The position numbers and the translations under genes are program-made. Positions 20,473-56,135 of a stretch of DNA of 64,000 nt are shown piece after piece. How positions within the stretch are numbered: position 1 is the stretch's first letter; each line of letters starts with the position of its first letter. The notes below the pieces were generated by a model, which was not told where the DNA came from, did no database searches, and was given only the letters and a program-made list of their open reading frames with translations. The DNA is from Escallonia rubra (lineage: Eukaryota > Streptophyta > Magnoliopsida > Escalloniales > Escalloniaceae), in assembly GCA_033065855.1 (NCBI GenBank), contig JAVXUO010003029.1, forward strand, positions 17,627 to 81,626, given 5' to 3'.

Positions 20473-22800
20473 TGTAACGCCCAAGAAATCCGGAGCTCCG
20501 CCGCCCCGAACTCCCGGGTCGTTATCCTACCGAATCACCTCAAACCTGTCAGACTAGTTCAGTAACCCATATTCCAAATCATCTAATTCAACATCAACTC
20601 AAATTTCTCAAAACACTAGATCACAACTGCTTAGCCTAAACTATTACAGCTTAGGTTCTTCGCAATTCAAATTTTCTAAGATCAAATAACAGTACCGACC
20701 CACGCAGGGATCTTACTATACCGTGGTGATGGGCTCATCGGAATCTCACTCAGTCTCTAACCCATTCCCGAACAATCTATTCTGATCAACACGTGCAGAA
20801 AGGAATCAAATGATGGGTGAGCTTTTAAGAGCTTAGTAAGATCGTACAAGGACCAACAAAATAATTACAAAATGATTCTAAGAATCTAAGTGACGAAAAT
20901 TTTCAGAATACTTCAAACGGTAAAAAACTCAATGATTTCCAAAACGATCAAAATTCATGATAAATAAAATGCCAAAATCACCAAATACAATCACGACGGA
21001 TTCCAAAACAATCAATGAAAAATCATTCCCAAAGTCATCATTTTAAATACAATGGTGGTTTTCCAAAAGATTTCAAAACACATGCGGATCATCTGAAACA
21101 GTACTTTCCAAAATACAATGATGACTTATCAAGGGATTTTAACCAAGTACAAATCATGGTATATATGGCGCGAATAAAATCAAAAATCAACGTTGACCCT
21201 GGGCGGTTACAATGCCACTCAGACAAAGTTAGTAGTGTACACATGCAGGATGTACCAAAACACTATTCCACTTGGGTACTAGCCTGGTTTTCCTGCAAGA
21301 TTCATACCAGCCGTATTGCACCCTCCAACAGAACAGAAACCCAGGTCAACACAGAAAATTCAGCAGTATCAATGAGCGTTAACGTAAGCTCAAATCTCCG
21401 AAATCAATTCAGGTCCCAATAACAATAATCATAATCACATAAGTCAGCATTCAGAATTTTCAGAATAAATCGGAATTTTAAGCATAAAGATCACAAATAA
21501 ACAACAAAAACGATTGCGAATAATTATTAAATTTAAGCACAACAATTCGGAAGAACGGATACAAACAATTGTCAAATTTGCGATAACAGACGAGCATCAC
21601 ATGATTTCCAAATAATCGATTCAGGTTCAATGTTGGGGTTTTCTGGGCAATAACATGCAAATATCAATACATGATTCAGAGTTCGTCATTAGTCATAAAT
21701 ATATCAAAGGAGTACTTATGAGTACGAGTTATCAAAATGAGGGTTCGGACGAAAGTCCTTACCCAGGGTTCAGATAGAATCCCTTACCTGGGTCCGCGGC
21801 TAAACTATCTAACCAGAAGTCTTTCACATTAACCTAAACGGAATAATCAAACCATTAGAACACAGACTATAGCAAAATATTATAACTTAATGCAGACTCA
21901 CGCATACTCCTAACATGAACCTCTCCTCACCGTGTATGTAAAATTACCGAAACGCCCATAAGGTGTAAAATTACCAAAATGCCCCTCTCAGACTTAAATT
22001 ATGAAAATGGTCTTCCCATAAGTAGAATCACTGAAATAAGCTTCCCATATGTAAATTTATGCAAAAATACATTTCTTAGGTCAAATTACCAAAATACCCC
22101 TTCGGGGTAGCAAATTACCAAATGCCCCTGGGGGTTTCCGACACCGGAAAAATCTCAAAATATCTTAAAATGCTATTTTAAGCATCCCGATATCATTTCT
22201 GGCCTAAAAATTATTTTAAAGAATATTCATCCGAAAATTCCAAACTGGTGTCCGGGCCACACAAAGGCCACGGGCCACCGGTCATCGGCTCGGTAGCCTC
22301 GGCTCATCGCCGTAAGGTAACGCACTTACGCCGGTCGGCGATCGCCGTGGCGTCAAGTGAAGCTCTCACGCCGTGACGCCGACATCTCTCCTCCTCTCTC
22401 GGCTCTCTCAGCCACCGCGGCTCGCCGCACCGCCCGCACGCCGGCAACACCCACCGTCCCACGGCAACCGGTCATCGGCTGGGCTCATCAGTTGGTTGCC
22501 GTACCCCGATTCTGAAGCGCGAAGCCGACGAAGGCCCTCCTCAGTCTGGCGGTCCGTACCCCAACTCCGGCCAGTCCCCACCCAAATCCGGCGACTCCGG
22601 CCAGATCAGATCTGGCGGATCTAGCTTAAAATTTAGATCTACCGTCTACGAGCCGGCGGACAAACTGAGGAAGTTCCGCCACTGCCGTTCGGCGGTCACG
22701 GCGCTTGAAATAGTGAAATTGCAAATCTGACTTTGAGTTTCAGTCACCGACGACATTGCGACAACGACGCCGTTCTGATTTCTGAGGACTGAGGTCAGTG
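20473..22800 (-). mobile_element. LTR of a minus-strand retrotransposon (outer end uncertain)
   Basis: The plus-strand text starts tgtaacgcccaag at 20473 next to the PBS. The segment has the make-up of long gypsy LTRs with a GC-rich block (22230-22620). The outer edge was not located; 22800 is a guess where composition changes to AT-rich repeats. The frame at 21015-21422 has no domain and is not called. Confidence 0.4.
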
Positions 22801-22809
22801 TGCATTTTG

Positions 22810-23280
22810 AACAATTTCTTTTGCTATTGAGAATTGATTATTTGATTAATAATTTTAGGTTGTTAGTTGTGTATTTGATAATTTAGATTACTAATTGATG
22901 CTTTATGGATGTTAATCGTGCATTGAGCACTAAGATTTGAGATTATTGATGGAGGATGGGACCCAATTGGATTTTTATCCTATTTGAGCATTGATTATTT
23001 GATTGATAAATTTAGGTTGTGTTAATTGTGCATTTAAAAATTGAGATTATTTTCATGCTGATTATATGTTGTTAATTGTGCATTGAGCATTTGAGAATTG
23101 AGATGGTTGATGGAGGATATGACTCAATTGGAGTGAGATGTCGGATATGTGATTTAGTTGAATGGTGGGTTGAAATTAAATTAATTAGGTTAACGCGATA
23201 ATAAAACATAACTGAAAAAGTAAAAGAATAAAATATTTGTAATTAACTAGATTATTTGATTGATAATTGATGGATTGATA
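22810..23280. repeat. Dispersed repeat related to the interior of the CACTA at 34380-34700
   Basis: Inverse similarity to 34380-34700: gatggaggatgggacccaa here and ttgggtcccatcctccgtc there, with neighbouring ttaattgtgcattgagcat and atgctcaatgcaca. Three internal degenerate copies of the block. It suggests a shared transposon family; the family itself was not identified. Confidence 0.6.
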
Positions 23281-24219: not shown

Positions 24220-25975
24220 GGATATTACATGCCCAATCGAGCTATGAGGCAAGCTGGCTGTCTACAAGGGATACCAAAACCCGCTGTAGACATGCGGCCA
24301 TACAGGAAGGGTTGAGGGCCAAACTTTGAGGTGCCTGATGCCTTGAATTTGTTGAGCGACGAGGTACAACAGTGAAATACCTGGCAGGAAATGTATGATA
24401 GCCTTGTATTGCTGAAGAACGACGACATCGGTATTGAGGAGTATCTACAATGGTTTCTGAAGATGACGCACACGAGGGTGAATCGCCTTTCCTAGGTAAA
24501 AAAATACATCGTATGTGCCACGTGAGTTCATCGATCAGTTCTGGGCGATGAATATTGTAAGTCATTTAATTCTGATTCTATTTATACTTGTGCGTCTTAT
24601 TGACCGATCGTGAAATGATTAGCCATATTTTCCATGCATGTTTTTTAGGTTGACATGGGCAGTGAGGTGTTCAAGCAGCTGGAAGGATTTGACTGGTTTA
24701 TCGCGCATGCTCCTGACAGTCTCAGGACGTCCAACGAGAGGTACAAGACTGAAGTTCACAACTTTAGTAATGCGTACCGGGGTTACCAAGGAGAGCCGTC
24801 TAATCGCTTGCCTCCTGACGCGTACGACTCTCAGCCTCAGAGTTAGGTGACCCAAGTAACTCCCCAAGGGCGCCCAAGCATACGGTCAGATTAAAGACAA
24901 CCGACGAAGCCATTGAGTTTGGCTAAATGAGATTGGATCGACGAGCACTACTTCGGGCCTGAGCCGTCTAATCGCTTGTCTCCTGACGCGTACGACTTTC
25001 AGCCTCGAGTCAGGTGACCTAAGTAACTCCCCAGGGGCGCCCAAGCATGCGGTCGGATAAAAGACAACCGACAAAGCCATTGAGTCCGGCCAAATGAGAT
25101 TGGATCGACGGGCACTACTTTGGGCCTGAGCCAATCGCAGCAGCAAACTTTCATGTTTTGGGATTCCTAGGTCACTCTGATCTAAGACTGTTGGCGCCGG
25201 AAACATATATTTCGAATTGGGTCCTGGACGCTTATATAGATTCGCTCCGTGTTAGAGAGCTAAAATATAACCCCTGCGAAACTTTGAAGCTCAACATGTA
25301 TGCCTCTTTTCTTATCCCCATCATGGTAAACAACATGAAGGAATTCATAGAATGGAGGAGGGGGCGAGGGATAATCAATGGCCCGTGGCGACCATCTGCA
25401 AACATGCTTTCCTATTTAAACGCGGACTATCAATGTCACGCATATGAGGCGAACCTAATCATGGTACCTGGTCATCATGCAAACCACTTCTTCCTATTAG
25501 TTCTCTTTCCAGAGAATAAAGTGGTCCACATATACGATAGTCTAAGAGAGGACGGACCTAGTCGGCAGCTGGCGCAAATGTACTCCACGTACATCGATGC
25601 GGTGGTTAGTTTATATTTCTTGACCTTCGCACATAGTCTATTCTTCTTGTTACATAGGCTTGATAACCTTTTTTATTGTTGGATGCAGACTACTATCATT
25701 CCGCTAGCGTGCCGACATTTTAAGGGGGAAGTCATCACGAGCAAAAAATGATAGAGCCTTGGACGGTCGTGATGATACAGAACCGACCAAAGCAACATAA
25801 CAGTCATGATTGTGGGATTTACGTCCTCAAGTACATGGACTACATAGCTCGCTCGGATGTGCTTGAATCTACGTCGTGGTCTCGAACGGATGCCTTGACG
25901 TTTAGATATAAGATAACATGGGAGCTGAAAAAGGGTGAAGCTAGACGCCTTCCTTACTATTATCCTGAGATGTAA
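24220..25975 (+). pseudogene. MULE-borne Ulp1-like (C48) cysteine protease, decayed
   Basis: Three parts are recognisable. Around 24230-24540 a fragment reads EEYLQWFLKMTHTRV, like the N-terminal region of transposon Ulp1 proteins. At 24655-24846 there is a further exon fragment. From 25130 the protease domain is clear: WIDGHYFGPEP, then a His region HHANHFFLLVLFP with the following Asp in HIYDSLRED, a probable GT-AG intron (about 25604-25688), and after it QNRPKQHNSHDCGIYVLKYMDY with the catalytic Gln and Cys. The His, Asp, Gln, Cys set of C48 proteases is therefore present. The gene is broken by a one-base shift in the A-run at about 25741-25747, by stops in the N-terminal part and by a 168-bp internal duplication. 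Ulp1 enzymes remove SUMO from proteins; the role of transposon copies is unknown. Confidence 0.75.
24793..25128. repeat. 168-bp tandem duplication inside the Ulp1-like gene
   Basis: Two copies (24793-24960, 24961-25128) starting gagccgtctaatcgcttg and containing ctccccaaggg/ctccccagggg and gattggatcgacg. A handful of differences separate them. The duplication disrupts the reading frame upstream of the protease domain. Confidence 0.9.
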
Positions 25976-27123: not shown

Positions 27124-29264
27124 CTAACACTCTTGCTCATCATCGTCCTCATCGACCATACCAGGTTCGATACCTAGCACTTTATAATGGTTTCTCTTGT
27201 CATGATCAGTCATCTTATTACACAACGCACACTTTCACAATTTTTTTTGACCCGTTGCTTCTTCAATCGGACTCTTCATACGTATTGCTTGTTTTCGCCT
27301 TTTTGTTTGAGAAAGAATTGGATAAAAAATATCATCCTCCTCACCTTGCAGGCTAGTTCTGTCAATGACTGGCTGTGAAGCTCAAGTGAATCTACCGGCT
27401 GGAGTCATCTGAATAGTCGGAGTGTCCCGTCTGTCTGGTAATGCCATCCTAAACTGTGCAAGGTTAGCCTTATCCCGTGCGGCTGCTTCAACTTGATACT
27501 TGTACCCATCAAATGTTGACGATGCATCCAATGATAAACCGTGCATGATGTTACAAATGTGATTATATCGCAGTGTCTCAGATTGCTCGAAATCAACTGA
27601 AATATTGGGCACGTAAGGAATGTGACAGTGTACTCTATTGGCTTGATTCGTCCACCGATCTAAGATATACTCGATCAGAATTTCACGAGCATTCTTAGCG
27701 CTAAAAAACCTCAAAGCGTGTCGACAGAATATACCTTTATGCTCAAACAGTTGACAGTTACAATTAACAAACCCGGTGTCCATACAAACTGCTACGGTAA
27801 AATGTCTTATGATCTTCGGAGCTGACGAAGAGCACAGATTGGCAAAATATGTCACATTTGTCAAAGCATAAACCTTGAGATCTCTATAAACTGTAGCCGC
27901 GTCGGCTTCTTTCTTAAGGAAAAAATATCTTGTTAAGGGCTTTATGCATCTCTAGTACAAACTCCTTTATACTTGAAGAATGGCCTACGTACCGATCAAA
28001 GAATGCATTCATATCTTCGCTTCTCGAGGTCGTAGTCATTCCGGCTGCAAAAAACTTTTTGGTGTAGGCACCGACCCATTGTGTCTTGATCTCATTCAAC
28101 GGTTTCAACCATTCATGACCGTGCAAAGAGTAGTCATCCATTAGCTTGGCCCACCTCTCTTTGAACACGTCGACCGTCAACGATTTCTTCACACATGTAT
28201 TAAAGTCACTATTGAATGTCGGATGGTTTGCATATACATTATGAAGCCGTTCGGGATATTTGTTGCTTATGTGCCATGTGCATAGGCCATGATGAGTATC
28301 TGGAAGGACCTTAGCGATTGCATTTTTCATTGCCAAGTCTTGGTCGGTGATGATGGTTTTTGGAGGAATATGATACATTGCTTCAAGCCACGTTTCAAAT
28401 AACCACGTAAATGACTCCTCTGTCTCATCCTTAAGCAGCGCAAAGTCAAACAAAATTGATTGATAGTAGTGGTTCACCCCGGTAAATGGAGCAAAAGGCA
28501 TAGAATACTTATTTGTGCGGTATGTGGTGTGAAACGTCACAACATCGCCAAAATTTTGGTAAGCAGCTCTAGACCGGGCATCCACCCAAAATATAGTACT
28601 AATGTCGTTCTCATCATCCATATGGAGACTATAGAAAAAGCCAGAATTCTCTCTCTGAAGGCGCTTGAAGATATCAAATGTAGCTTAAGAATCACTCTTA
28701 CTGAAAGACTCTCTGCTCTGAGCACAAAGTTCATTTCAAAGGTCTATTTTGTTGAAGCTCAACTTGTCAATCCCCCCAGCCTGGCTTGAGAAAACCCCCA
28801 TCATTCTAGAAGGTGGGATTTTAGCATCGGCCATTGTAAATATCAATTGTCTGTGTGCCACGCTTATTTGTCAGTGCCGATGAATTTGACCAATCTTACT
28901 AGGGGTCATCAATTGATGATTATGGCTCAACTCCACTCCCGTCACAACCCAATGGTTTTCATTTTTTCGGTGTGCTGCATACACATGGGCCTTGCAGTCG
29001 GTACTCAAAAATGTGTCCCTTTTTCTTTGTCTTGATCCGAACAACCGGGGGTACATGCAGTGCTCCTCTATGATACTCAAATAGTCGGGAACAAATTTGG
29101 TCTGTATTCGCCCGTTTTCTAGTCGTCTTAATTCTAACACCGAAACCTATCATTTTCGAATATGCTCTATAGTATGCTTTAACTTCGTCCAGTGTTTGAA
29201 AAACTTGACCTTTGTAAGGTGGATCAAAATCTTCATAAAAATTATTTCCTCCAGTTGCATCCAT
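27124..29264 (-). pseudogene. FAR1/FRS-type MULE transposase, decayed
   Basis: Reading from the ATG at 29264: a FAR1 DNA-binding domain (FGVRIKTTR, then in another frame ENGRIQTKF, WVVTGVELSHNHQL), a linker, the MULE catalytic domain (TIFWVDARSRAAYQNFGDV, TDQDLAMKNAI, CTWHISNKYPE), a SWIM zinc finger (CNCQLFEHKGIFCRHAL at about 27770-27700) and a C-terminal CALCNKMTDHDKRNHY block ending DDDEQEC-stop at 27124. The order is that of FAR1/FRS proteins and Jittery/Hop-like MULE transposases. It is inactive: a frameshift near 29133, stops at about 28871, 28770 and 28685 in the linker, a frameshift in a T-run near 27918 between the catalytic and SWIM parts, and a stop near 27382. Its partner on the same element is the convergent Ulp1-like gene. 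Confidence 0.85.
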
Positions 29265-29685
29265 ATTTATATTAAAATCTAAAAACAAAAATTATATCAT
29301 TCTCAACAAGTCATAGAATTAAATGATTTTTTTTGTAAAAAAACAGAAATAAAATGGAATGAAATGAAATGGAAAAGGCAAAACTTACAATGTAGTATTG
29401 TTGCTTTCAATTACCCCCTCCTTCAAGATAATTGCTCCAATATTAACTTTTTTTTTTGATAATATCACTAAAGTTGGATAAACTAATTTCAAGATAGTGC
29501 AAGCAAACACTAAAAGTCTGTGATGTTGGAAGAATTTTTGAGTGTTTGTTTGGTGAAAAATAGGAGTTTAGGGGTTATAGAGGATGAAAAATGGTTAGGG
29601 TTCGATAGTGAGTAAGTGGGGAAGAAAAAGAAACAGAGATATATAGCCAGAAAGAAAAAGACTGCTCGTGAAGTTAAAGGGAAAC
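29265..29685. promoter_or_regulatory. 5' region of the MULE transposase pseudogene
   Basis: Non-coding between the transposase start and the right terminal repeat. Read on the minus strand it has a TATA-like ctatatatctc near 29645-29635, about 380 bases upstream of the start codon. Role inferred from position. Confidence 0.35.
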
Positions 29686-31442: not shown

Positions 31443-32830
31443 TATATATATGGGTTAATTAAAAAACTGTCCCCTCAGGTTTACACGTTTTTGCACTTTG
31501 CTCCCCGTTTTTACAACTTTCGCAATAGTGTCCCTCGAGGTTGACAAAACCATTGCAAACGGCTCCGAAATTGGATGGCTGTTGAAATTCGGACGTTAAG
31601 TCCGCATGTGCACAGCACATGCCATTTTGGCAGGGGAAAATCGGTCAATTCCCTTACCAAAGCCCTCTGATAACACTAAACCCCATTACCCTCTTATCTC
31701 TCTTCTCTCTCTCCTCTCCGCAGGCAACAGGCCTTAATCGGGCAGCGCCATTCCCATCTCCGGCGTCCCCATTGCTGACCACATTCCTCACTGGCAATGA
31801 ACTCCGGCACCGCCTACATCGTACACCACAACACAACATCCCCGTGACCACCGTGCTGTAGCCGAGATGCCGCTGCCACCGCCAAGTCACCGTGCGATCA
31901 CTGTCGCCGGCCACCATTCAGTCTCTGGTGGGAAACTCTGGTTGGCAGCCCCATCGCCGGTCAACGCCTCTTCCATATCACGGCAGCGCCATCACCGGCG
32001 AGCAACTACAGCTGCCCCTTCACCAAGACTCCACAACCGCCACATCGCAGCCAACGCGTCGCTACCACCACCACACGAGACTTATCATCGGCCAGCCATA
32101 ATTCCGGTCGCACCAGACGTGGAGCACCACGGCGCCACACTGCAGTGTCACAGTACTACCGAAGATGAATCCGAAATGCAAATCTCACTATCGATCTCGA
32201 CTCATTTCACTACAAGAAAACAGGCTTTTAGCGACGGGGAAATCCGTCGCTAAAAACCCAAAATCCGTCGCTAAAAGAATTAGCGACGAATTCACCGTCG
32301 CTAAAAATCCCTCGTATAAAAGCCCGTCACTAATAGTTTAGCGACGGAATATTTAAATCCGCCGCTAAATATGTGAATTTTACCGACGGATTTATTTTTC
32401 ATTAGCGACGGATATTCCGTCGCTAATTCTATTATTAGATTTTTAATTTATTTTCTTTTTTGTCCAATTAGCTACGTATTAAATATTTAGCGACGGAATA
32501 TTCCGTCGCTAAATAACTGATTGAAATGAATACTTTAGCGACGGAATAAATCCGTCGCCAAAAGTCAATTTTTAAATTTTTTTTTTATTTTTCAATTACC
32601 TAAACCTGTACAGAAATACAATTTTCAATTCTCAACAACAACGCGCAATAAGCGAAATACAGAAAGAAATATATATATATATAATCAATTATAAAAAATA
32701 TTTATTATAAAAGAAACTCATACATGTGCAAGCCGGGAACCGGAGATAGCCGGTTAGGAGAGGGGAGAAGAGTACAAGCCGGGCGCGGGGGGGGGGGGGG
32801 GAGCTAGGAACGGGCACGGGAAGGGGCTCA

Positions 32831-33988
32831 TCAGGGGTTCCCGAGTCCCGGATTTGGATCCTGCTGAACCGGGGCCGGGGCGGCTGGTCCAGCAGTGCCC
32901 TGCTCCCTCATCATCCGGCACACCACTGTAGCAATGCGCTGGATCTCCTCGTCGTCCAACTGAGGCCGAGGAGCCGGTGTCTGTGGAGGGGCAGCAGGGG
33001 GTGAGGACGCTCCTATCACGGCATGAGGAGTCGTGCTAGGCAGGCCGCGTATGCGGCCTTTCGGCCGATTCACGACCTCCGGCGTATCCAGCCATCGCTT
33101 CAACCCCCCAGTACTCGCAGCCGTACTAGTGGACGCTGATGGCTGTCCGGACTGCTGCTCGGACCCCCTTAGCTGTTCATACGAGGCCTGCAAAAATAGT
33201 GGTTTAACGATATGTTAGGGCATTAATTAACGAAACAGACATTGAGGATAGAAAGAAAAAACATTAACTTAAGTAAATTGACTCACATCGATCCGCCGGG
33301 CAATATCTGAAATATAGTCGCCCGCCTGGTGCGTCTCGTCCTTGTCCTTCTTCCGCACGTGCGTCTGAGTATAGGTCAGAGCTATGACCTCATCCTCCTC
33401 TAGATCCGGGTGCTCGACCGCGTTCATGTGTCAGACGATGTCGTGTGGCACCGACCCCCCCGTGTGCGTCGGATCTCTGTTCTGTCTGTTCTCAGCCCCG
33501 CTCTTACTCTTGGCGTCCCAACCTGGATCCGCAGCCCACCGATCTATCATCTCCCCCCATACACGGTGAGATATCCAATGTGGGGGATATTTCGTCATGT
33601 CCGTCATCGGGGCACCCGCGGGCAGCGCCTTCTTCGCCCGGTCTCGTGCATCGTGGAGCCATTGTCGGTAATTCTTATCGATGTAGGCAAAGAAAGCCTG
33701 CTGCCCCAGTACCTGCTGCTCAGGCGTGTCAAACGTGAACCCCTCCTGTAATGCATTCAATAACACAAATTAACAACATAAAGCAAACTGTAATTTAACA
33801 TTTACTAACGCTGAAAAAAATACTTCACCGTACCAGCTCGGCTGGGGCTGGGCCCCCGATGGCTGTTCGCGATCACTCTGTGCCTCGTCATCAGTAGACA
33901 ATGACGAGGAGGGACTAAACGGGGAGGAAGCAGCTCGGCGTCCAGCCCGGCCACGAATAGCCCGTATCCTATCCATATCTGACTTCAT
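32831..33988 (-). pseudogene. CACTA accessory transposase (Transposase_24 / Ptta type), mutated
   Basis: Three exons on the minus strand. Exon 1 starts at the ATG at 33988 (MKSDMDRIRAIRGRAG, serine- and acid-rich). Exon 2 (about 33744-33287) has EGFTFDTPEQQ, then NRQNRDPTHTGGSVPHDIV, then HMNAVEHPDLEEDEVIALTY and DYISDIARRID; the NR-N...HTGGS block and the following ALTYTQTHVRK are hallmarks of plant Transposase_24 proteins. Exon 3 (about 33189-32831) is Gln/Ser/Pro-rich with RPKGRIRGL and ends PGLGNP. An in-frame TGA at 33428-33430 interrupts exon 2, and the exon 1 to 2 junction does not join in frame by the obvious splice sites, so it is probably inactive. Accessory CACTA proteins bind subterminal repeats, here likely the gcgacgg motifs. 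Confidence 0.75.
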
Positions 33989-34051
33989 ATATATTATATA
34001 CAAAGACATTAACACGTGAAAAACAATAATTTAGGCATAAATCATCATCGG

Positions 34052-34118
<67 letters not shown>
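33989..34118. repeat. TA microsatellite left of fold-back MITE
   Basis: Uninterrupted (TA)n from about 34055 to 34118. Confidence 0.95.
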
Positions 34119-34121
<3 letters not shown>

Positions 34122-34274
34122 AGCTGATCCCTTGCTAGCGCTGGCAGGCTTGCCAGCGCTGATTTGTCGTCCGCTACATAATGTCGCGGACGGCAACTAT
34201 CGTCCGCTACATTATGTAGCGGACGATAATGTAGCGCTGGCAAGCCTGCCAGCGCTGGCAGTGGATCACGACCC
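34119..34274. mobile_element. 156-bp fold-back MITE inside TA microsatellite
   Basis: Nearly complete inverted repeat. The left arm starts gggagctgatccc and has gcgctggcaggcttgccagc; the right arm is its inverse ending tggatcacgaccc. The centre holds inverse copies of cgtccgctacat. The start resembles the right end of the 18-kb MULE (gggagccgatcc in inverse), so they may be relatives. TA repeat lies directly on both sides. Confidence 0.8.
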
Positions 34275-34291
34275 TATATGTATATATATAG

Positions 34292-34345
<54 letters not shown>
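34275..34345. repeat. TA microsatellite right of fold-back MITE
   Basis: Interrupted (TA)n tract following the MITE, with a few g/c substitutions near its start. Confidence 0.9.
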
Positions 34346-34348
<3 letters not shown>

Positions 34349-34744
34349 CAGATGTGCAAAAACACATCAATAAACACCAGTCTGCGCTAACTAACAGGTA
34401 TCTCAATCCAATTGGGTCCCATCCTCCGTCAACAATCTCAATTCTCAATTCTCAAATGCTCAATGCAATAAAAATTAACAAAAATCACACATTCAATCCA
34501 ATTGGGTCCCATCCTCCGTCAATAATCTCAATATCTCAAATGCTCAATGCACAATTAACAATCTAAAATCATCAATTAACAACCTAAAATCATCAATTAA
34601 TAATCGCAATTACTTCAAATGCACAGCTAATAACCTAAAATCATCGATCAATAATCACAATTCTAAAACGCATAATTAACAACATAAAATTATCAAACAA
34701 ATGATCAATGTTCAAATGGGGAAAAAATGTTCAAAATTCACATA
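34346..34744. repeat. Dispersed repeat inside CACTA
   Basis: Two degenerate copies around aatccaattgggtcccatcc (34406, 34496) and repeated aacctaaaatcatc. It is the inverse relative of 22810-23280. No gene. Confidence 0.6.
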
Positions 34745-35876
34745 TTCGATGCGCTTGAATTATTTCAATTTAGGGTTCGATTGTATTAGGGCATTCAATT
34801 TAGGGTTCAATTAGTTTCATTTAGGGTTCGGTTCGATTAGGGCATTCAATTTAGGGTTCAATTACTTCAATTTAGGGTTCAATTAGGGGGTTCTATTGAT
34901 TCAATTTAGGGTTCAGTTGATTTGAGGCATTAAATTTAGGATTCAATTAGTTCAATTTAGGGTTCGGTTCAATTAGGGGGTTCTATTGATTCAATTTAGG
35001 GTTCAGTTGATTTGAGGCATTAAATTTAGGGTTCAATTAGTTCAATTTAGGGTTCGGTTGGATTAGGGCATTCAATTTGGGGTTCAATTAGGGTTCGGTT
35101 AGATTGGGGCAATCAATTTAGGGTTTAATTAGGGGTTCAATTTGTTTAATTTATGATTCGATTCAATTAGGGCATTCAATTTAGGGTTCAATTACTTCAA
35201 TTTAGGGTTCAATTAGGGGGTTCTATTGATTCAATTTAGGGTTCGGTTGATTTGAGGCATTCAATTTAGGGTTTAATTAGTTCAATTTAGGGTTCGGTTG
35301 GATTAGGGCATTCAATTTGGGGTTCAATTAGGGTTCGGTTAGATTGGGGCAATCAATTTAGGGTTTAATTAGGGGTTCAATTAGTTTAATTTAGGATTCG
35401 ATTCAATTAGGGCATTCAATTTAGGGTTCAATTACTTCAATTTAGGGTTCAATTAGGGGGTTCTATTGATTCAATTTAGGGTTCAGTTGATTTGAGGCAT
35501 TAAATTTAGGGTTCATTTAGTTCAATTTAGGGTTCGGTTGGATTAGGGTATTCAATTTGGGGTTCGGTTAGATTAGGGCAATCAATTTAGGGTTTAATTA
35601 GGGGTTCAATTAGTTTAATTTAGGATTCGATTCAATTAGGGCATTCAATTTAGGGTTAAATTACTTCAATTTAGGGTTCAATTAGGGGGTTCTATTGATT
35701 CAATTTAGGGTTCGGTTGATTTGAGGCATTCAATTTAGGGTTCAATTAGTTCAATTTAGGGTTCGGTTGGATTAGGGCATTCAATTTAGGGTTCAATTAG
35801 GGTTCGGTTAGATTGGGGCAATCAATTTAGGGTTTAATTAGGGGTTCAATTAGTTTAATTTAGGGTTCGATTCAAT
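34745..35876. repeat. Higher-order tandem repeat, 240-bp units of caatttagggttcaatta
   Basis: The base unit is about 20 bases (tcaatttagggttcaattag with variants). It is organised into a higher-order unit of 240 bp: ttctattgattcaattta recurs at 34891 and 34981, then 35221, 35461 and 35690. The base unit contains tttaggg, the plant telomere motif, and the array ends in pure telomere repeats. Confidence 0.9.
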
Positions 35877-35912
35877 TGGGGTTTAGGGTTTAGGGTTTAG
35901 GGTTTAGGGTTT
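35877..35912. repeat. Interstitial telomere repeat (TTTAGGG)n, five copies
   Basis: Five perfect gtttagg-phase heptamers lie at 35879-35912, directly before the captured LRR fragment. Arabidopsis-type telomere motif. Confidence 0.95.
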
Positions 35913-36530
35913 ACGAGTTCAGCACGTGTATTTTAGTAACGGAGATCTGTTAAGGAATGGTTTTCCAAGTTCTCTTCTTCAACTAAAGAATTTGCGAACG
36001 ATTAGAGTTGAAGAGGACGTTACAGTTGAAGGGGACGTTACACAGGGTTGCAGCCAATCATTTGTTGATACGTGCGTTTCAAGATTTCAGTGCTTGCGGA
36101 TTCTAGATTTAAGGAACTCCATATTCGAGACCCTACCACGATCCATTGGGGGTTTGAAGCATCTGAAATACCTGGACATAAGTTGGAATGGAAATCTCAA
36201 ATCGCTTCCTACATCCCTTTGCAAATTGCAGAGTTTGCAAACACTACAATTAGAGGGATGCTGGGAGCTAAAAGAGTTGCCTAGGGATTTTGGAGACCTA
36301 ATCAGCCTCAGATGCTTGGGTCTAACAACACAAGAGAGATTTCTGACGGCGAATGTTTTCCAAAGGTTGACATGTCTACTAGCTTTAGAAATGTTTCGAT
36401 GTGAAAATCTAGAATGTCTATTTCAGACGAAGGGGAAGAAGCAAATTCGTAAAAAGCAAATGTCTATTTAAGACTAAGGAGAACAATAAAATCCCGAGTG
36501 GCCTCCGCAAATTACACATTACAAGTAAAT
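35911..36530 (+). pseudogene. Captured NBS-LRR (resistance gene) LRR fragment inside CACTA
   Basis: Open from about 35911 with no ATG in place (the frame starts LRVQHVYFSNGD). Then come PSSLLQLKNLRTIRV, CLRILDLRNSIFETLPRSI, HLKYLDISWNGNLKSLPTS, LQSLQTLQLEGCWELKELP and ISLRCLGLTT: five or six leucine-rich repeats in the style of the LRR region of CC-NBS-LRR proteins (RPP13/RGA type). A stop follows at 36469, but a shifted frame continues the homology at 36479-36520 (KIPSGLRKLHIT), so there is a frameshift or lost intron. No NB-ARC domain is present. The fragment is joined at its left to telomere repeats and lies wholly inside a CACTA with intact ends, so the element captured it. Confidence 0.8.
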
Positions 36531-36893
36531 TCGTTTAAACAAGCATACACATTACAAGTAAATTCGTGAAAGGCAAATGGATATGAAAAACTGGTGCAAA
36601 ACCTACCTGAAAATCAAGAGACCGCAAGAGAGATCGACGGCAGTGGCGGCGGCGGTTCTTCGGTTTTGAAGATCGGCAGCACTGGCGGCGACGGTGGCGG
36701 TGGCAGGCTATATTCCGTCTGGGGGTGGGTTGCCGGGGATGGCGACGGAGGTGGCGTCGAAGGAAATATCGCCGGGGATGGCGACGGAGGTGGCGTCGAA
36801 GGAAATATCGCCGATGAGAGTTAATAGAGAGAGAGAGAGAGAGAGAGAAAGAAACGGGAGAAAGAAATGCAGAAGGGGATCTGTGTTTTTAGA
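36531..36893. repeat. GGCGG-rich segment, 39-bp duplication and GA microsatellite
   Basis: A 39-bp direct duplication (gccggggatggcgacggagg..., copies at 36733 and 36772), glycine-type GGN coding-like low complexity, and (GA)n at 36826-36849. It probably contains the leader of the lost CACTA gene; no protein domain. Confidence 0.6.
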
Positions 36894-37657
36894 CCTTTAC
36901 CGACGGAACACACCCGTCGGTAAAAATCCGTCAGGAAACCTCTGCTTTCACCGACGGGTATTTTTACCGACGGCATTATTTTGTCGCCTATATGTTTTTG
37001 AAAATCATCGAAAATAAAAAAAAAAACCTATAAAATATTTACCGACGGTACGTTTAGCGACGGAATGACGGTTTATTCCGTCGCTGAAATGGCTTTTAGC
37101 GACGGAATAAATGCCGTCGCTAAAAATCCGTCGTTAAATCCTTCTTTTCTTGTAGTGTTTGGGTTGCTGAAATGAGTGTCAAGATTATGCCATCTTCAAG
37201 CCACCTACTTGTCATCCAACCTTCTTTCTATATTCACCACCATAAGCAAAACCGTCCCCAGGAAATTCCGGCCATTGTTTGACTCCTTCACGTTAGAGAT
37301 GTTGATTTCTATGGTTCTGTAAGGGAGATATGTGACGTTATTTACATGAAACACGAGTTTCTCGTTAAAGACATTGTTAGACAGCTGCGGAGAGGAAGAG
37401 AGAGAAGAGAGATTGGAGGGTAATGGGGTTTAGGGTTTTCAGAGGGCTTTGGAAAAGGAATTGACCGATTTGCCCATGCCAAAATGGCATGTGCTGTGCA
37501 CATGCAGATTTAACATCCGAATTTGAACGGACGTCCAATTTTGGAGCTGTTTGCAATGGTTTTGTCAACCTTGGAGGACACTATTGCAAAAGTTGTAAAT
37601 ACGGGGAGTAAAGTACAAAAACGTGTAAACCTCAGGGGACAGTTTTGTAATTAACCC

Positions 37658-43658: not shown

Positions 43659-46600
43659 ATGGCAATTAGTAGACATGGGGCACAAAGAAATGCAGGAGCT
43701 ATGCCAAACCCTGATGAGGAGCGTCAAGATGAGCATCAAGAGGTCAATGCCACCATGCCTGAGCCACCACGAAGTTGGGCAGCCACTATTGCAGGTGGCA
43801 CCTCGCCAACAAACAGTGAACCAACAAACAACCATCAAGAAGATTATGAGCATGTGGCAGGTACAATAATAAGACGTGTACAATTTTGGCCTATTTCATT
43901 TCAATTACTATGCTGGAAACAGTCCAGTATATGTCAATATACTGGACTGTTTTCATGTATATGTCAGTATATGTCAAGTTTCCATGTGTTCTTTCTGTTA
44001 AGAAAAGTCCAGTATATGTCAATATATAAACACCCAAAGGGCTACAATTTTCATTTTTGTTTTTGCTGGTGCATTTTTTTGGGTAAGATGTCCCTTATTT
44101 CATTAAAGCACAGAACATTTACATACTCTCAAGCATGAGATCTATGCATCTGATATATAGTGATTGAGCGATAGAAATGGAATGTCTTGTAGCAGTAACC
44201 TGAATTTGATGAACAGATATAAGCGTGGAGCAGCCTGATCAGACAAATACTCGAGGCCCAACAATGATGCATGGTGGGTGGGGTGAAAATGGAAGCATTT
44301 TGGAAATTCCCACTAATGAGCTTGGCCAACCAATTCTGGAATCAGGGACTAAACTTGCATCACATTTGGGAGTTCTTGCACGCAACGGGATTTTGGCACC
44401 ACTGAATTATATCGAGTGGAGGAAGGTACCAAAGCTTAACAAGGATGCTATATGGAACCACATTAAGGTATAAAGTTATATAATGTGTGTAATAGCTGAA
44501 GTCATTTGTCTCCAAAACTTAATATATGTTCTTGGTATTTATCTTAATATATGGAGGATATGGAAGCAGGGAATAACCACTGCAATAAGAGCTGTGTAGG
44601 AGCAGCCATGATGGAGGGCATGCACATTGGTTTTTGTGGGAATGATTGCTGTTGCAGCCATGTTGTGTGATTGTTGATTGTGTTTATGTGGGTATAGAAG
44701 TGGAAAAAGGGAAGGCGAAGGTGGGTGCCATGGTGGGCAGCCATGGTGCTGTGTCGTGGGTGGGTTTATAGGGTGTTTAGGTGGGTGTAGAAGTGGAAAA
44801 GGGAAGGAGAAGGTGGGTGCCATGGTGGGCAGCCATGCATGGTGCTGTGTCGTGGGTGGGCATGTACATTGGTTTTTGTGGGAATGACTGCTGTTGCAGC
44901 CATGTTGTGTGATTGTTGATTGTGTTTATGTGGGTATAGAAGTGGAAAAAGGGAAGGCGAAGGTGGGTGCCATGGTGGGCAGCCATGGTGCTGTGTCGTG
45001 GGTGGGTTTATAGGGTGTTTAGGTGGGTGTAGAAGTGGAAAAGGGAAGGAGAAGGTGGCTGCCATGGTGGGCAGCCATGCATGGTGTTGTGTCGTGGGTG
45101 GGCATGTACATTGGTTTTTGTGGGAATGACTGCTGTTGCAGCCATGTTGTGTGATTGTTGATTGTGTTTATGTGGGTATAGAAGTGGAAAAAGGGAAGGC
45201 GAAGGTGGGTGCCATGGTGGGCAGCCATGGTGCTGTGTCGTGGGTGGGTTTATAGGGTGTTTAGGTGGGTGTAGAAGTGAAAAAGGGAAGGCGAAGGTGG
45301 GTGCCATGGTGGGCAGCCATGGTGCTGTGTCGTGGGTGGGTTTATAGGGTGTTTAGGTGGGTGTAGAAGTGAAAAAGGGAAGGCGAAGGTGGGTGCCATG
45401 GTGGGCAGCCATGGTGCTGTGTCGTGGGTGGGTTTATAGGGTGTTTAGGTGGGTGTAGAAGTGGAAAAGGGAAGGCGAAGGTGGGTGCCATGGTGGGCAG
45501 CCATGGTGCTGTGTTGTGGGTGGGTTTATAGGGTGTTTAGGTGGGTGTAGAAGTGAAAAAGGGAAGGCGAAGGTGGGTGCCATGGTGGGCAGCCATGGTG
45601 CTGTGTCGTGGGTGGGTTTATAGGGTGTTTAGGTGGGTGTAGAAGTGAAAAAGGGAAGGCGAAGGTGGGTGCCATGGTGGGCAGCCATGGTGCTGTGTCG
45701 TGGGTGGGTTTATAGGGTGTTTAGGTGGGTATAGAAGTGGAAAAAGGAAGGAGAAGGTGGGTGCCATGGTGGGCAGCCATGGTGCTGTGTCGTGGGTGGG
45801 TTTATAGGGTGTTTAGGTGGGTGTAGAAGTGGAAAAGGGAAGGAGAAGGTGGCTGCCATGGTGGGCAGCCATGCATGGTGCTGTGTCGTGGGTGGGCATG
45901 TACATTGGTTTTTGTGGGAATGACTGCTGTTGCAGCCATGTTGTGTGATTGTTGATTGTGTTTATGTGGGTATAGAAGTGGAAAAAGGGAAGGCGAAGGT
46001 GGGTGCCATGGTGGGCAGCCATGGTGCTGTGTCGTGGGTGGGTTTACAGGGTGTTTACACTGTTGTTTCTCATTTTGAAAATGAGACAACAAAAAATGAG
46101 AGCAACCATACAGCTAGTGAAGGAGCACTCAAAACTTACACAAAAAAATCGGCAAAAATAGCAAAATAGCTGGTTATTATACGTATAAAAATCTGCAAAA
46201 TAGTTGTTTTCCTGCTGAAATTTGAATGAATGGTAAGTATTAATTCCCACGTCTAATAGTAGCATTTCTTTGTATGTCATCACCATATATATATAGGAGA
46301 ACACAAATGCAACAACGGAGATGAGAAGAGTTCTCATGATGTCTGTTGGGAAGAAATGGAAGGAGTGGAAGCATTCTGTGAAGGCCAAGGGTTATGATCC
46401 GTATGATAACGATGTTGAGCGCTTGGCAAATCGCCCGAATAGGGTGGAAGAGAATCAATGGCCTATTCTTGTCCACTATTGGGGTGGCAAAAACGTGAAG
46501 GTATGTTTCAAATGGCTTGGACTGACTTTTTAGTAGCATGTACTTATAAACTCTGTTTAATACCTAATCATGCTTCTCTGTTTTCTTTCAAATGCAAGGC

Positions 46601-52899: not shown

Positions 52900-55800
52900 C
52901 TAAGAAGGTATTGTCTTGGTCGATAATAGCTGAGAAACATCGCGCATTGTTGGTCTTGATTGCGGATTGGTATGCAAACATGATCTTGTCAGTTCCATGA
53001 TGGATTTCACTACCTCCTCAACTTTGGGTGAAAGAGAAGGAAGGCGTTGGTCTACTAAATCTTTTAGCTGGAACTTCTCTGATGAAGATGTCAGAGAAGG
53101 AATGATATCACATGGATGCCTTCCTTTGATCACTTCCATTGCTAACACCCCAAAGCTATACACGTCGCACTTTTCAGTCACCTTCATTGTGTAGGCAAGC
53201 TCTGCAAATAGAGAGACAAATATTTCATGACGTTATGCTCTAATTCTACGTCACTTTAAGATGGTTAGGAATATTGGAGAAAGTCTATTACCTGGTGCAA
53301 TATAACCATATGTGCCTGCAATTGCGCTCCAGTTGGAGGAGTCTAACTTTAAAAGCTTAGCAGTGCCAAAATCTGAAACACAAGCCTCGTACTCAGAATC
53401 AAGCAACACATTCTTGCTTGATATGTCTCGATGAACAATTGGCTGTGAGCAGTCATGATGCATGTAAGACAAAGCATGAGCCACACCTTTGATTATATTC
53501 ACCCTTTTAGGCCAATCCAATTCCTTAGCCTCTTCATCTCTAATCAAGATTGTGGCCAAGCTACCCCTTTTGAGGTACTCAAAAACCAAAAACGATTGTT
53601 GAGTATGTGAATAAAACCCATGAAGTTTCATAATGTTTAGATGCCTTATTTCAGTCAATGCCCTTACCTCGTTTGTAAAACCTGCGCGATCAGCCATCTC
53701 AGGTAACGAGTGAAGCTTCTTCACAGCAACTATACCAAGTGATCGTAGCTTTGCTTTGTAAACATTTCCAAATCCTCCCTTTCCAATGCAATAAGTGGCA
53801 TCGAAATCATTTGTGGCTTTTACAATTTCGTTATACATAGCTCTCCCATCAGAAGCAGATATTGAGAATACATTTTCGACATGTACATCCCTTTGTTCAA
53901 CCTCAGGCTTCCTCTTCCTTCGTTCATAAGTGATGAAGAGGGCAATAAATGTGCAAAGAAGGAAAACTGATCCGAAAAGAGGGAGCGAGATCATAAGCAC
54001 AAGTTTGTTGCTCTTCTTCGGACTATGTTTGTTCATTGCCAAAGGGTTTTTGCAGGGTTTTAGTCCTGTAATGCTGCCACACAAATCTTTGTTTCCTTGT
54101 AATGCTTCTATGGAAGCATTCGTAAAGGCTACACTGTTTGGGATGGGACCCTGCAATTGATTGTAGGATATGTCGATTTGCAACAAATGCATGGATTCAA
54201 AAGTCTTTGGGATGCCACCAGAGAGCTCATTGCAGGAAAGATTCAGCCTGTCCAACTCCTGTAGTTTGCTGATCACTGACGGTATCTCCCCTCTTAGCTT
54301 ATTATGACTCAGATCAAGCAAGGTCAGGAAAACTAAGTTACATATCTGGACAGGAATTTCTTCACTTATGTTGTTACTGCTCAAGTTCAAGTGGAATAAC
54401 TGTAAACTGTTCCCAAGAGTTGTTGGTATTGACCCACTCAATCTGTTTGCTGAAAGATCAAGATAAGACAACTCACCTAGCGATCCGAGTCGTGGAGGAA
54501 TACTACCAGAAAGTTGGTTATTACTCAGATCCAGCTTCCAAAAGTGATTCAAGTTGCCAAATTCCTTTGGAATTTCCCCAACTATGTGATTTGAAGAAAG
54601 ATCAAGTTCATGTAGTTGGGTAGAATTCCCAAACTCTGGTGGAATGCTACCGCTAATGTTGTTCTTCGCAATATGCAGCGCTGTTAGCTGTTTGCACCTA
54701 ATCCAGTTCTCAGAGAGTTCCCCGTAAAAATTGTTGTCGTCTAGATTCACGTAATCCAAGTTTGGATAAACACCAAGGCTCTCAGATACATTTCCAGTGA
54801 GCTTGTTTCCATCTAAGCGGAGTCTTTTTAAGCTTGAGCAATTGCTCAAGCTTTTGGGGATTGGACCAGTGAGCCGGTTGTTGTTTACGGTAAAATTTTG
54901 AAGCTTTCCACCTTGGCAAATTTGCTTGGGCAAATGGCCAGAAAATTGGTTTGTGTCCATTTCGAGCACACTTAGTAATGTCAGATATCCCAGTTCTTCC
55001 GGTATGGGACCGGAAAGTTGATTGTCCCGAAGGAACAATATTTCTAAATTTCTCAAATTGCCCAATGAAGCAGGAACTGAGCCATTGAGTTGATTTACGC
55101 TCAGTTCTAGATCAGTGAGAGACTTCAAGTTTGCTAGCTCTTCAGGAATGGGACCAGAAAGTGAATTATTAAAGAGATGTAGAATACTTAGGGAGCTCAG
55201 ATTACCGAATGATGCTGGGATTGAACCAGAAAGTTTGTTGCTATAAAGGCTTAGGGTTTTAAGTGATTTCAACTTTCCTATTTCGCGGGGGATAGGACCA
55301 AATATGTTGTTTATGAACATATTCAAAACAGTAAGATTATCCAAATTTCCAAATGTGGAAGGAATAGGACCCGATAAAAGGTTCATGTTTATATAGACTT
55401 CGACAAGGTTTATGAGATTTCCCATCTCTGGTGGAATGGGACCAGTAAGCTGATTACTGTAAAGATACAAACGAGTCAGGTTGCTCAAACTACCCAAGGA
55501 AGCAGGAATTGGACCCTCCAGATGATTGTTATACAAGGCAAGTTCAGAAAGAGATCTTAGCTGGCCTATTTCTTTGGGAATCGAGCCATTTAACTTATTT
55601 GCAAAAAGGTCGAGGATCTCAAGATTTGTTAGCAGCCTGATTTCTAGTGGGATAATTCCTGAGAATTGATTCCTAGACAAGTCAAGATAGGTGAGCTTGG
55701 AGATGTAACCAATCTGAGGTGGGATAGTACCAGAAAGATTGTTCACGCTGCAGTCGATAGCTGCAAGATTTGGAAACGATGAGAACGAGAGGCCGTAAAG

Positions 55801-56079
55801 CGTACCTGTTACGCCTGACGACGTCAGGTTCAATCCGATTACACTCCCATCAGCATTGCAGGAAACTCCATACCATGTGCAAGGGGTAGAAGAATTGTTG
55901 GCGTTATTGGGAAGAGACCACAAAGTTAGCCTAGAGTTGTTTTCAAGGCTGGCTTTCCATTTGAGGAGGGCTGCAACTTCTTCAGCAGAAGCAGAAGCAA
56001 CTTGGGGTGAAGAGAAGGTTATGAAAAAAAGAACTAGGGATACAAAGAAGAAGCCAGTTCCAGAGGTTAGAGAACCCAT
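52900..56079 (-). CDS. MIK2-like: LRR receptor-like kinase, MIK2-type
   Basis: Two exons: 56079-53292 and 53201-52900, with a GT-AG intron of 90 bp that splits the Glu codon of the kinase APE motif; 1029 residues, close to the roughly 1045 of Arabidopsis MIK2. Order: signal peptide (1 to about 32), LRR N-terminal cap with [16 protein letters not shown] and a CTWYGVSC cysteine pair (38-75), about 22 LRRs (100-650, repeated GNLxNLxxLxLxxNxLSGPIP), a single membrane span (about 693-718), and a kinase domain. Kinase residues are all present: GKGGFGNVY loop (766-774), Lys787 in VAVKKL, HRD at 883-885, DFG at 903-905, APE at 928-930. It is an RD kinase and looks active. The family acts at the plasma membrane: MIK2 perceives SCOOP-type peptides and is linked to cell-wall sensing and pollen-tube guidance in Arabidopsis. 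The ligand here is unknown. ATG at 56079 is the only start giving the signal peptide. Confidence 0.95.
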
Positions 56080-56124
56080 GTAATTACTATTTTTCTGTGA
56101 TATATTATCATGATGCCGGTGCTG

Positions 56125-56135
56125 CTTTTATATAC
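56125..56135 (-). promoter_or_regulatory. TATA box of the RLK gene
   Basis: The minus strand reads tatataaaag about 50 bases upstream of the ATG at 56079. The same gctgcttttat block is preserved in the relic copies at 58095 and 60188. Confidence 0.65.

Follow-up and report, generated by a model that had tools for sequence, protein, structure and literature searches.

Background

Capture of gene fragments by plant CACTA transposons is well documented (PMC4290129, PMC8978399, PMC8903248, PMC13317346, PMC1947982), as an earlier note on the DNA studied here had already stated. The CACTAs of bread wheat chromosome 3B carry host genes and gene fragments, some in multiple copies and, in most cases tested, under purifying selection, and two of the CACTA families have been suggested to have exchanged DNA recently (PMC4290129). 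Other published CACTAs feature gene fragments in their 5' region and tandem arrays in their 3' region. Pack-CACTA and Pack-TYPE elements are non-autonomous and hold a gene fragment between their ends (PMC8903248, PMC13317346), while soybean Tgm-Express1 contains five host gene fragments in one element, with transcripts shown (PMC1947982). In common bean, one NBS-LRR gene carries in its introns two elements of pvCACTA1, a CACTA with WWW target copies (PMC4938662).

In the 64,000-nucleotide stretch of Escallonia rubra DNA analysed here (the window), a non-autonomous CACTA contains an LRR fragment of an NLR gene beside a TTTAGGG tract: a known kind of CACTA capture in a new form, not a new kind. 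As on wheat 3B, a host gene fragment is carried, and in multiple copies; unlike there, the NLR LRR appears free of coding constraint, and a single piece of it seems to replace an interval of the element at a minisatellite edge. Gene fragment and tandem array, located in different regions of the other published CACTAs, here abut at the TTTAGGG tract. The general build is that of Pack-CACTA, but the junctions suggest replacement with filler, and a remnant of an element gene is retained. Unlike Tgm-Express1, which also bears host gene fragments, the present element is known from its sequence alone; with pvCACTA1 it shares WWW target copies, but there the element lies inside an R gene, whereas here a piece of an R gene lies inside the element. 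Among the matches listed from the open-licence literature, judged by titles and the starts of abstracts, none describes the capture of an NLR LRR by a CACTA next to a TTTAGGG edge, which is no proof of absence.

Structure of the element

The CACTA spans 4,950 bp (32208-37157) and is delimited by identical 13-bp ends, CACTACAAGAAAA, which occur exactly at 32208-32220 (plus strand) and 37145-37157 (minus strand), nowhere else in the 64 kb and never in 100 shuffles of the window. Assignment to the CACTA (En/Spm) group relies on these terminal inverted repeats and on subterminal repeats, all 14 AGCGACGG/CCGTCGCT words of the window falling within the element, close to its ends. The intact ends and 3-bp target-site duplication described in the earlier note are thus recovered, the latter as TTT/TTT flanks in the window copy only, a weak sign when taken alone, the copies being T-rich and two random 3-mers of the window agreeing by chance with p about 0.02. 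A six-frame Pfam scan of the element revealed no transposase, LRR families being the only ones above the cut-off, and the element is therefore classified as non-autonomous; a transposase gene is required in autonomous CACTA members only, and does not define non-autonomous ones. The features referred to below are the following.

32205-32207, no strand: left target-site copy TTT (flank comparison)
32208-37157, no strand: non-autonomous CACTA (CACTACAAGAAAA ends, AGCGACGG/CCGTCGCT subterminal repeats, six-frame Pfam scan)
32831-33990, minus strand: gene remnant of the element, interrupted in frame by a stop near 33431 (open frames; no Pfam match)
34387-34742, minus strand: A+T-rich repeats of the element, resembling window 22799-23157 (repeat comparison)
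34758-35881, plus strand: minisatellite of TTTAGGGTTCAATT type with a 240-bp higher-order period (repeat analysis)
35879-35913, plus strand: 35-bp tract in perfect TTTAGGG phase, edge of the minisatellite (period-7 reading)
35914-36514, plus strand: captured NLR LRR fragment, including the 40-bp insertion; right limit approximate (Pfam, genome copies, NLR relatives)
36441-36480, plus strand: site of the 40-bp insertion, which shifts the frame (made up of a cargo repeat and a stretch resembling 36556-36579)
36513-36534, plus strand: right-junction filler of 22 bp, with the same bases as 36546-36567 (repeat comparison)
36535-37157, minus strand: right side, with a leader-like stretch, subterminal repeats and the right end (sequence comparison)
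37158-37160, no strand: right target-site copy TTT (flank comparison)

The minus-strand remnant, which matches no Pfam class, is perhaps accessory and transposase-like, by resemblance only. Within the leader-like stretch, the word CAG/GTAGG at 36609 on the minus strand is, by comparison with the consensus, a putative 5' splice site, and the captured LRR, antisense to the remnant, may perhaps lie within an intron. The element also contains, at 34055-34345, a MITE-like palindromic insert flanked by long TA runs.

The captured fragment and its NLR relatives

Pfam detects LRR_14 (4.2e-19, above the cut-off) over about 36070-36405, and LRR_8 (5e-8). The first 207 bp to the right of the tract, searched alone, give an unconvincing LRR_14 match (E 0.16); ten NLR relatives, however, align from base 4 or 5 of the cargo, and the NLR piece therefore reaches the tract, which runs straight into the open LRR stretch as originally proposed. 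The missing start codon and the later frameshift reported at the same time are equally real: the open frame 35908-36471 lacks an ATG ahead of the LRR, and the frame is shifted by the 40-bp insertion. A structure prediction of the LRR piece, made without alignment, had a mean pLDDT of 31.8 and was set aside.

Kinship with NBS-LRR proteins is borne out by the host genome, where at least ten NLR relatives match the cargo at 80–87% identity. One of them, L038, contains a 643-residue open frame that matches the NB-ARC (1.7e-29), winged-helix (WH_DRP, 1.2e-18) and LRR (LRR_14, 1e-16; R13L1/DRL21, 4.1e-9) domains of a plant NLR, and identifies the source family, not the direct donor. Its NB-ARC match starts at profile position 33, the first 32 positions being absent, and the preceding DNA reads, by eye, like a retroelement frame on the opposite strand; L038 may therefore be a cut gene. 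L038, apparently truncated on its 5' side, shows no coiled coil; going by the WH_DRP and R13L1/DRL21 matches, the source gene may have been of the CC class. Two further relatives, L039 and L041, show an out-of-frame length change in the compared stretch, so that not all ten are intact. The search for a donor R gene in the host genome, suggested in the earlier note, thus led to the family but, among the loci scored, not to the direct donor: the nearest relatives diverge from the consensus of the cargo by 8.6 and 8.9%.

Searches of bacterial and viral collections, with 78 and 8 pattern matches respectively, confirmed no relative. The window itself contains an LRR receptor-like kinase gene (52900-56127, minus strand; Pfam matches on 53251-56127, with the remainder of the kinase, by eye, in a second exon at 52900-53232). 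Considered as a source of the cargo, it was rejected, as only pieces at 23–35% identity could be aligned to 53251-56127.

Copies of the cargo in the host genome

The host genome (566 Mb in 3,222 contigs) was searched with 35914-36620, yielding 42 rows; since 40 of 82 first-look candidates were scored, all counts are lower bounds. The 39 loci read comprise 21 longer cargo copies, 8 shortened ones and 10 NLR relatives; the last two of the 42 rows belong, as small fragments, to NLR loci among these, and contig C554, outside the 39 loci, matches query bases 1-298 at a contig end. There are hence at least 29 cargo copies: 21 nearly or fully full-length, the window copy included, at 90–100% identity, and 8 which stop at query base 422, at 98–99% identity. 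One longer copy, L014, lacks the first 36 bases, and its distances and frame are not meaningful.

The right CACTA end is exact in 26 of the 29 copies, and is followed by 23 distinct 25-base flanks, three pairs of copies sharing a flank; such pairs may be local or assembly duplicates. Exact ends and distinct flanks indicate that the element moved many times after the capture. The earlier note had proposed to look for other CACTA copies with the same cargo, and these exist in number; together with the NLR relatives and the LRR-free elements described below, they support the capture of an R-gene LRR by a CACTA. As in Pack-TYPE elements, a host gene fragment lies between terminal inverted repeats and is mobile in several copies.

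The eight shortened copies (L030-L037) represent a second element type, with the same tract-LRR join and the LRR cut at query base 422; seven of them share a stop created by the junction, and L031, which retains the junction of the first type, links the two. In the tree, the branch leading to the second type was disregarded, as 60 bp of unrelated flank inflate its length. Over 35923-36334, 27 copies (L014 and L029 dropped) differ from their own consensus by 1.2% on average, and the window copy is identical to it.

The TTTAGGG tract and the minisatellite

The earlier note described five perfect TTTAGGG repeats. The period of 7 is indeed perfect over 35 bp, but the tract consists of four complete units with a partial one at either end, and not of five complete units. 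TTTAGGG occurs 31 times in 34740-35881; three earlier minisatellite copies in the same phase read TTCGATTCAATTAGGGCATTC, while the last reads TTCGATTCAATTGGGG and then passes into TTTAGGG, the register of the minisatellite being maintained as far as the tract. In 28 of the 29 copies read, the longest perfect TTTAGGG run near the cargo measures 14–106 bp, a variation which denotes slippage behaviour; no run was found near the cargo of L014, which begins 36 bases late. The tract is the slippage-prone end of the minisatellite, and no telomere.

The host genome contains 9,543 forward and 3,672 reverse matches to (TTTAGGG)4, and the left flank of the minisatellite (34355-34780) gave 1719 first-look candidates, of which 40 were scored. 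We looked at 23 contigs with a perfect (TTTAGGG)4, the head of a far longer list and not a random sample. In 19 of them, at least five minisatellite words lie within 150 bp to the left of the tract; of the other four, C46, C129 and C204, for which only 38–40 bases were fetched on that side, are minisatellite-like, and C192 is a different array. To the right of the tract, at least six kinds of sequence are found, in 8, 5, 3 (the NLR piece), 3, 1 and 1 contigs, C192 and C161, the latter lying inside the minisatellite, falling outside these kinds; C9 and C116, which belong to the group of five, agree with its other members over no more than the first 36 and 45 bases. For one of the right-hand sequences, 2,699 first-look candidates were counted. 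The three forward frames of six loci, which represent the five kinds other than the NLR piece, produced just two weak Pfam matches (E 0.097 and 0.066), below the cut-off, so that the NLR piece is the sole right-hand sequence with a convincing match among those tested in forward frames.

Different element subfamilies may share the minisatellite, or its edge may be a recurrent joining point. A bolder version, in which the TTTAGGG-ended edge acts as a recurrent exchange port of this CACTA group, breaks or template switches repeatedly adding new sequence and the NLR LRR being one load of several, we regard as rather doubtful. In the listed sample, at any rate, perfect TTTAGGG runs are mostly transposon minisatellite edges, and could mislead telomere finders.

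LRR-free elements and the junctions

A genome search with the right side of the element (36536-37157) gave 1,679 first-look candidates; among the 40 that were scored, 17 match from query base 10 rather than 1. Three of 17 LRR-free candidates were read, L062, L065 and L067, and the LRR is absent from all three. L067 shares with the window copy the minisatellite edge over 89 bp (one one-base indel, two mismatches), with a TTTAGGG-like tract, and the right leader, at 480 of 494 aligned bases; between edge and leader of L067 lie 1,261 bp of other sequence, with no match in the window. The same edge and TTTAGGG tract, followed by L067-type sequence, are found in C46, C169 and C171. L067 is likely an empty element. 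Among the LRR-free elements read it alone has the edge, no minisatellite being found within the approximately 1.5 kb read on that side of L062 and L065; these agree with L067 only from base 430 on and differ further to the left, which makes the empty state variable in its left part.

This comparison points to the probable replacement of about 1.3 kb of the element by NLR sequence of about 0.6 kb. It is simpler to assume that the LRR-free state was the earlier one; the reverse would have to restore 1.26 kb also present in other elements.

At the left junction, the copies read TTTACGAGTTCAG, TTTAGGGTTCAG or TTTAGGGTTTAG, and the first join is accordingly uncertain. The word GGTTCA stands at the cargo start in 5 of 10 NLR relatives, and the minisatellite unit reads TTTAGGGTTCA, so that a join at a short shared word appears likely. 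At the right junction, CTCCGCAAATT is followed by the 22-base filler and by the element's TTTAAACAAGC. A 28-mer spanning this join is exact in 17 of the 21 longer copies and present with at most two mismatches in all 21, against eight mismatches at best in the three LRR-free elements read. Such fillers are typical of synthesis with template switching. Two repeats at the right junction score 38 and 34, and two of seven control windows, which overlap on a tandem repeat inside the LRR, score 36–37; the filler therefore rests on the exact 22-bp repeat (44) and on the comparison of copies. The 40-bp insertion is present in 7 of the 21 longer copies.

Discussion

We consider it highly probable that an NLR LRR replaced an interval of an L067-type CACTA, that the chimera was subsequently amplified, and that the tract is the edge of the minisatellite. 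A break or gap in an LRR-free CACTA of this type, between minisatellite edge and leader, would have been repaired by copying about 0.6 kb out of an NLR-family resistance gene, with entry near the TTTAGGG/TTCA edge and exit via a short template-switch filler, about 1.26 kb of element sequence being replaced. The replaced structure is directly visible in the comparison of elements; its direction, and gap repair by template switching, are what we infer. The chimera, whose distinct flanks are observed, would then have moved to at least 23 sites with transposase presumably supplied from elsewhere; one lineage acquired the 40-bp insertion, and the tract-LRR part, by a route that may be conjectured, reached the second element type, where it is now seen. 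Opposite to the element gene remnant, and perhaps in an intron, the LRR would be decaying as passenger DNA. Source-gene relatives, a likely empty element and amplified products are all held by one genome, making a route of CACTA capture readable base by base.

A different origin had been considered possible in the earlier note, namely that a CACTA captured the junction formed when telomere repeats closed a chromosome break next to a subtelomeric R gene. The perfect TTTAGGG phase of the tract and its contact with the LRR agree with this, but the minisatellite keeps its register up to that point, LRR-free elements (L067, C46, C169 and C171) have the same edge with the tract, minisatellite words stand to the left in 19 of the 23 listed contigs beside at least six right-hand kinds, and the tract is absent from the 25 bases to the left of the cargo in all ten NLR relatives, which makes a telomeric junction extremely improbable. 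An interstitial telomeric repeat produced by break repair was likewise rejected: it should be absent from the empty site, whereas LRR-free elements carry the tract. Two CACTAs could instead have flanked an NLR part, lost their inner ends and moved as a composite, a model proposed for Pack-TYPE elements (PMC8903248, PMC13317346). Two elements of the same type could yield similar sides by such a tandem insertion; both sides of the cargo, however, correspond to a single LRR-free element type in which one interval has been exchanged, and the right-junction filler is identical to sequence 33 bp away, so the junctions favour replacement with filler and the composite route seems unlikely.

Two possible uses of the cargo were weighed. 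In the first, the open frame would be expressed as a truncated LRR protein, a decoy or chimeric product. A stretch of 165 codons is indeed free of stops and frameshifts in 11 of the 20 longer copies with a full left end (L014 left out), but is disrupted in the other 9, has no start codon and runs opposite to the element gene remnant. Distinct changes among 26 copies (L014, L021 and L029 dropped) are 22 synonymous, 53 nonsynonymous and 8 stop, where 27.4, 68.1 and 4.5% are expected without constraint: the synonymous share fits neutrality (p = 1.0) and stops (8 of 83), far from being depleted, are slightly above expectation (p = 0.03). These changes are consistent with the absence of coding constraint and, taken with the partial loss of the frame, suggest that the open frame reflects youth and not use; a protein product is hardly credible. 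Alternatively, the copies might supply antisense or small RNAs tuning the NLR cluster. At least 29 copies exist, their cargo is antisense to the element gene remnant, and 35914-36441 shares 248 of its 508 21-mer positions with one or more of the ten NLR relatives, against none for a control stretch of the element, so that small RNAs from the cargo could reach NLRs; if the copies do make small RNAs, dozens of scattered loci could influence a single NLR family. Shared k-mers of this kind would, however, be expected after any recent capture from a multigene family, and copy changes show no coding constraint, though RNA pairing needs none; we judge this use quite improbable. On present evidence, the cargo is passenger DNA.

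Genomic neighbourhood

The CACTA is surrounded by 261-bp inverted repeats (31452-31712 and 37397-37657), about 90% alike and with TA-rich flanks, and was probably inserted into an older MULE-like or other long-TIR element. A MULE transposase domain (PF10551, 1.6e-30) and a SWIM zinc finger (1.2e-5) are encoded at 27382-29291 on the minus strand. A Ulp1 protease match (PF02902, 1.3e-7; 25739-25915, plus strand), about 2.6 kb from the CACTA-like repeat array at 22799-23157, perhaps belongs to another degraded element. A tandem array with 242- and 92-bp periods, with 97% matches between copies, spans 44616-45896, and a transposase-associated domain at 1000-1548 (PF13963, 1.8e-15) is probably a fragment of a second CACTA.
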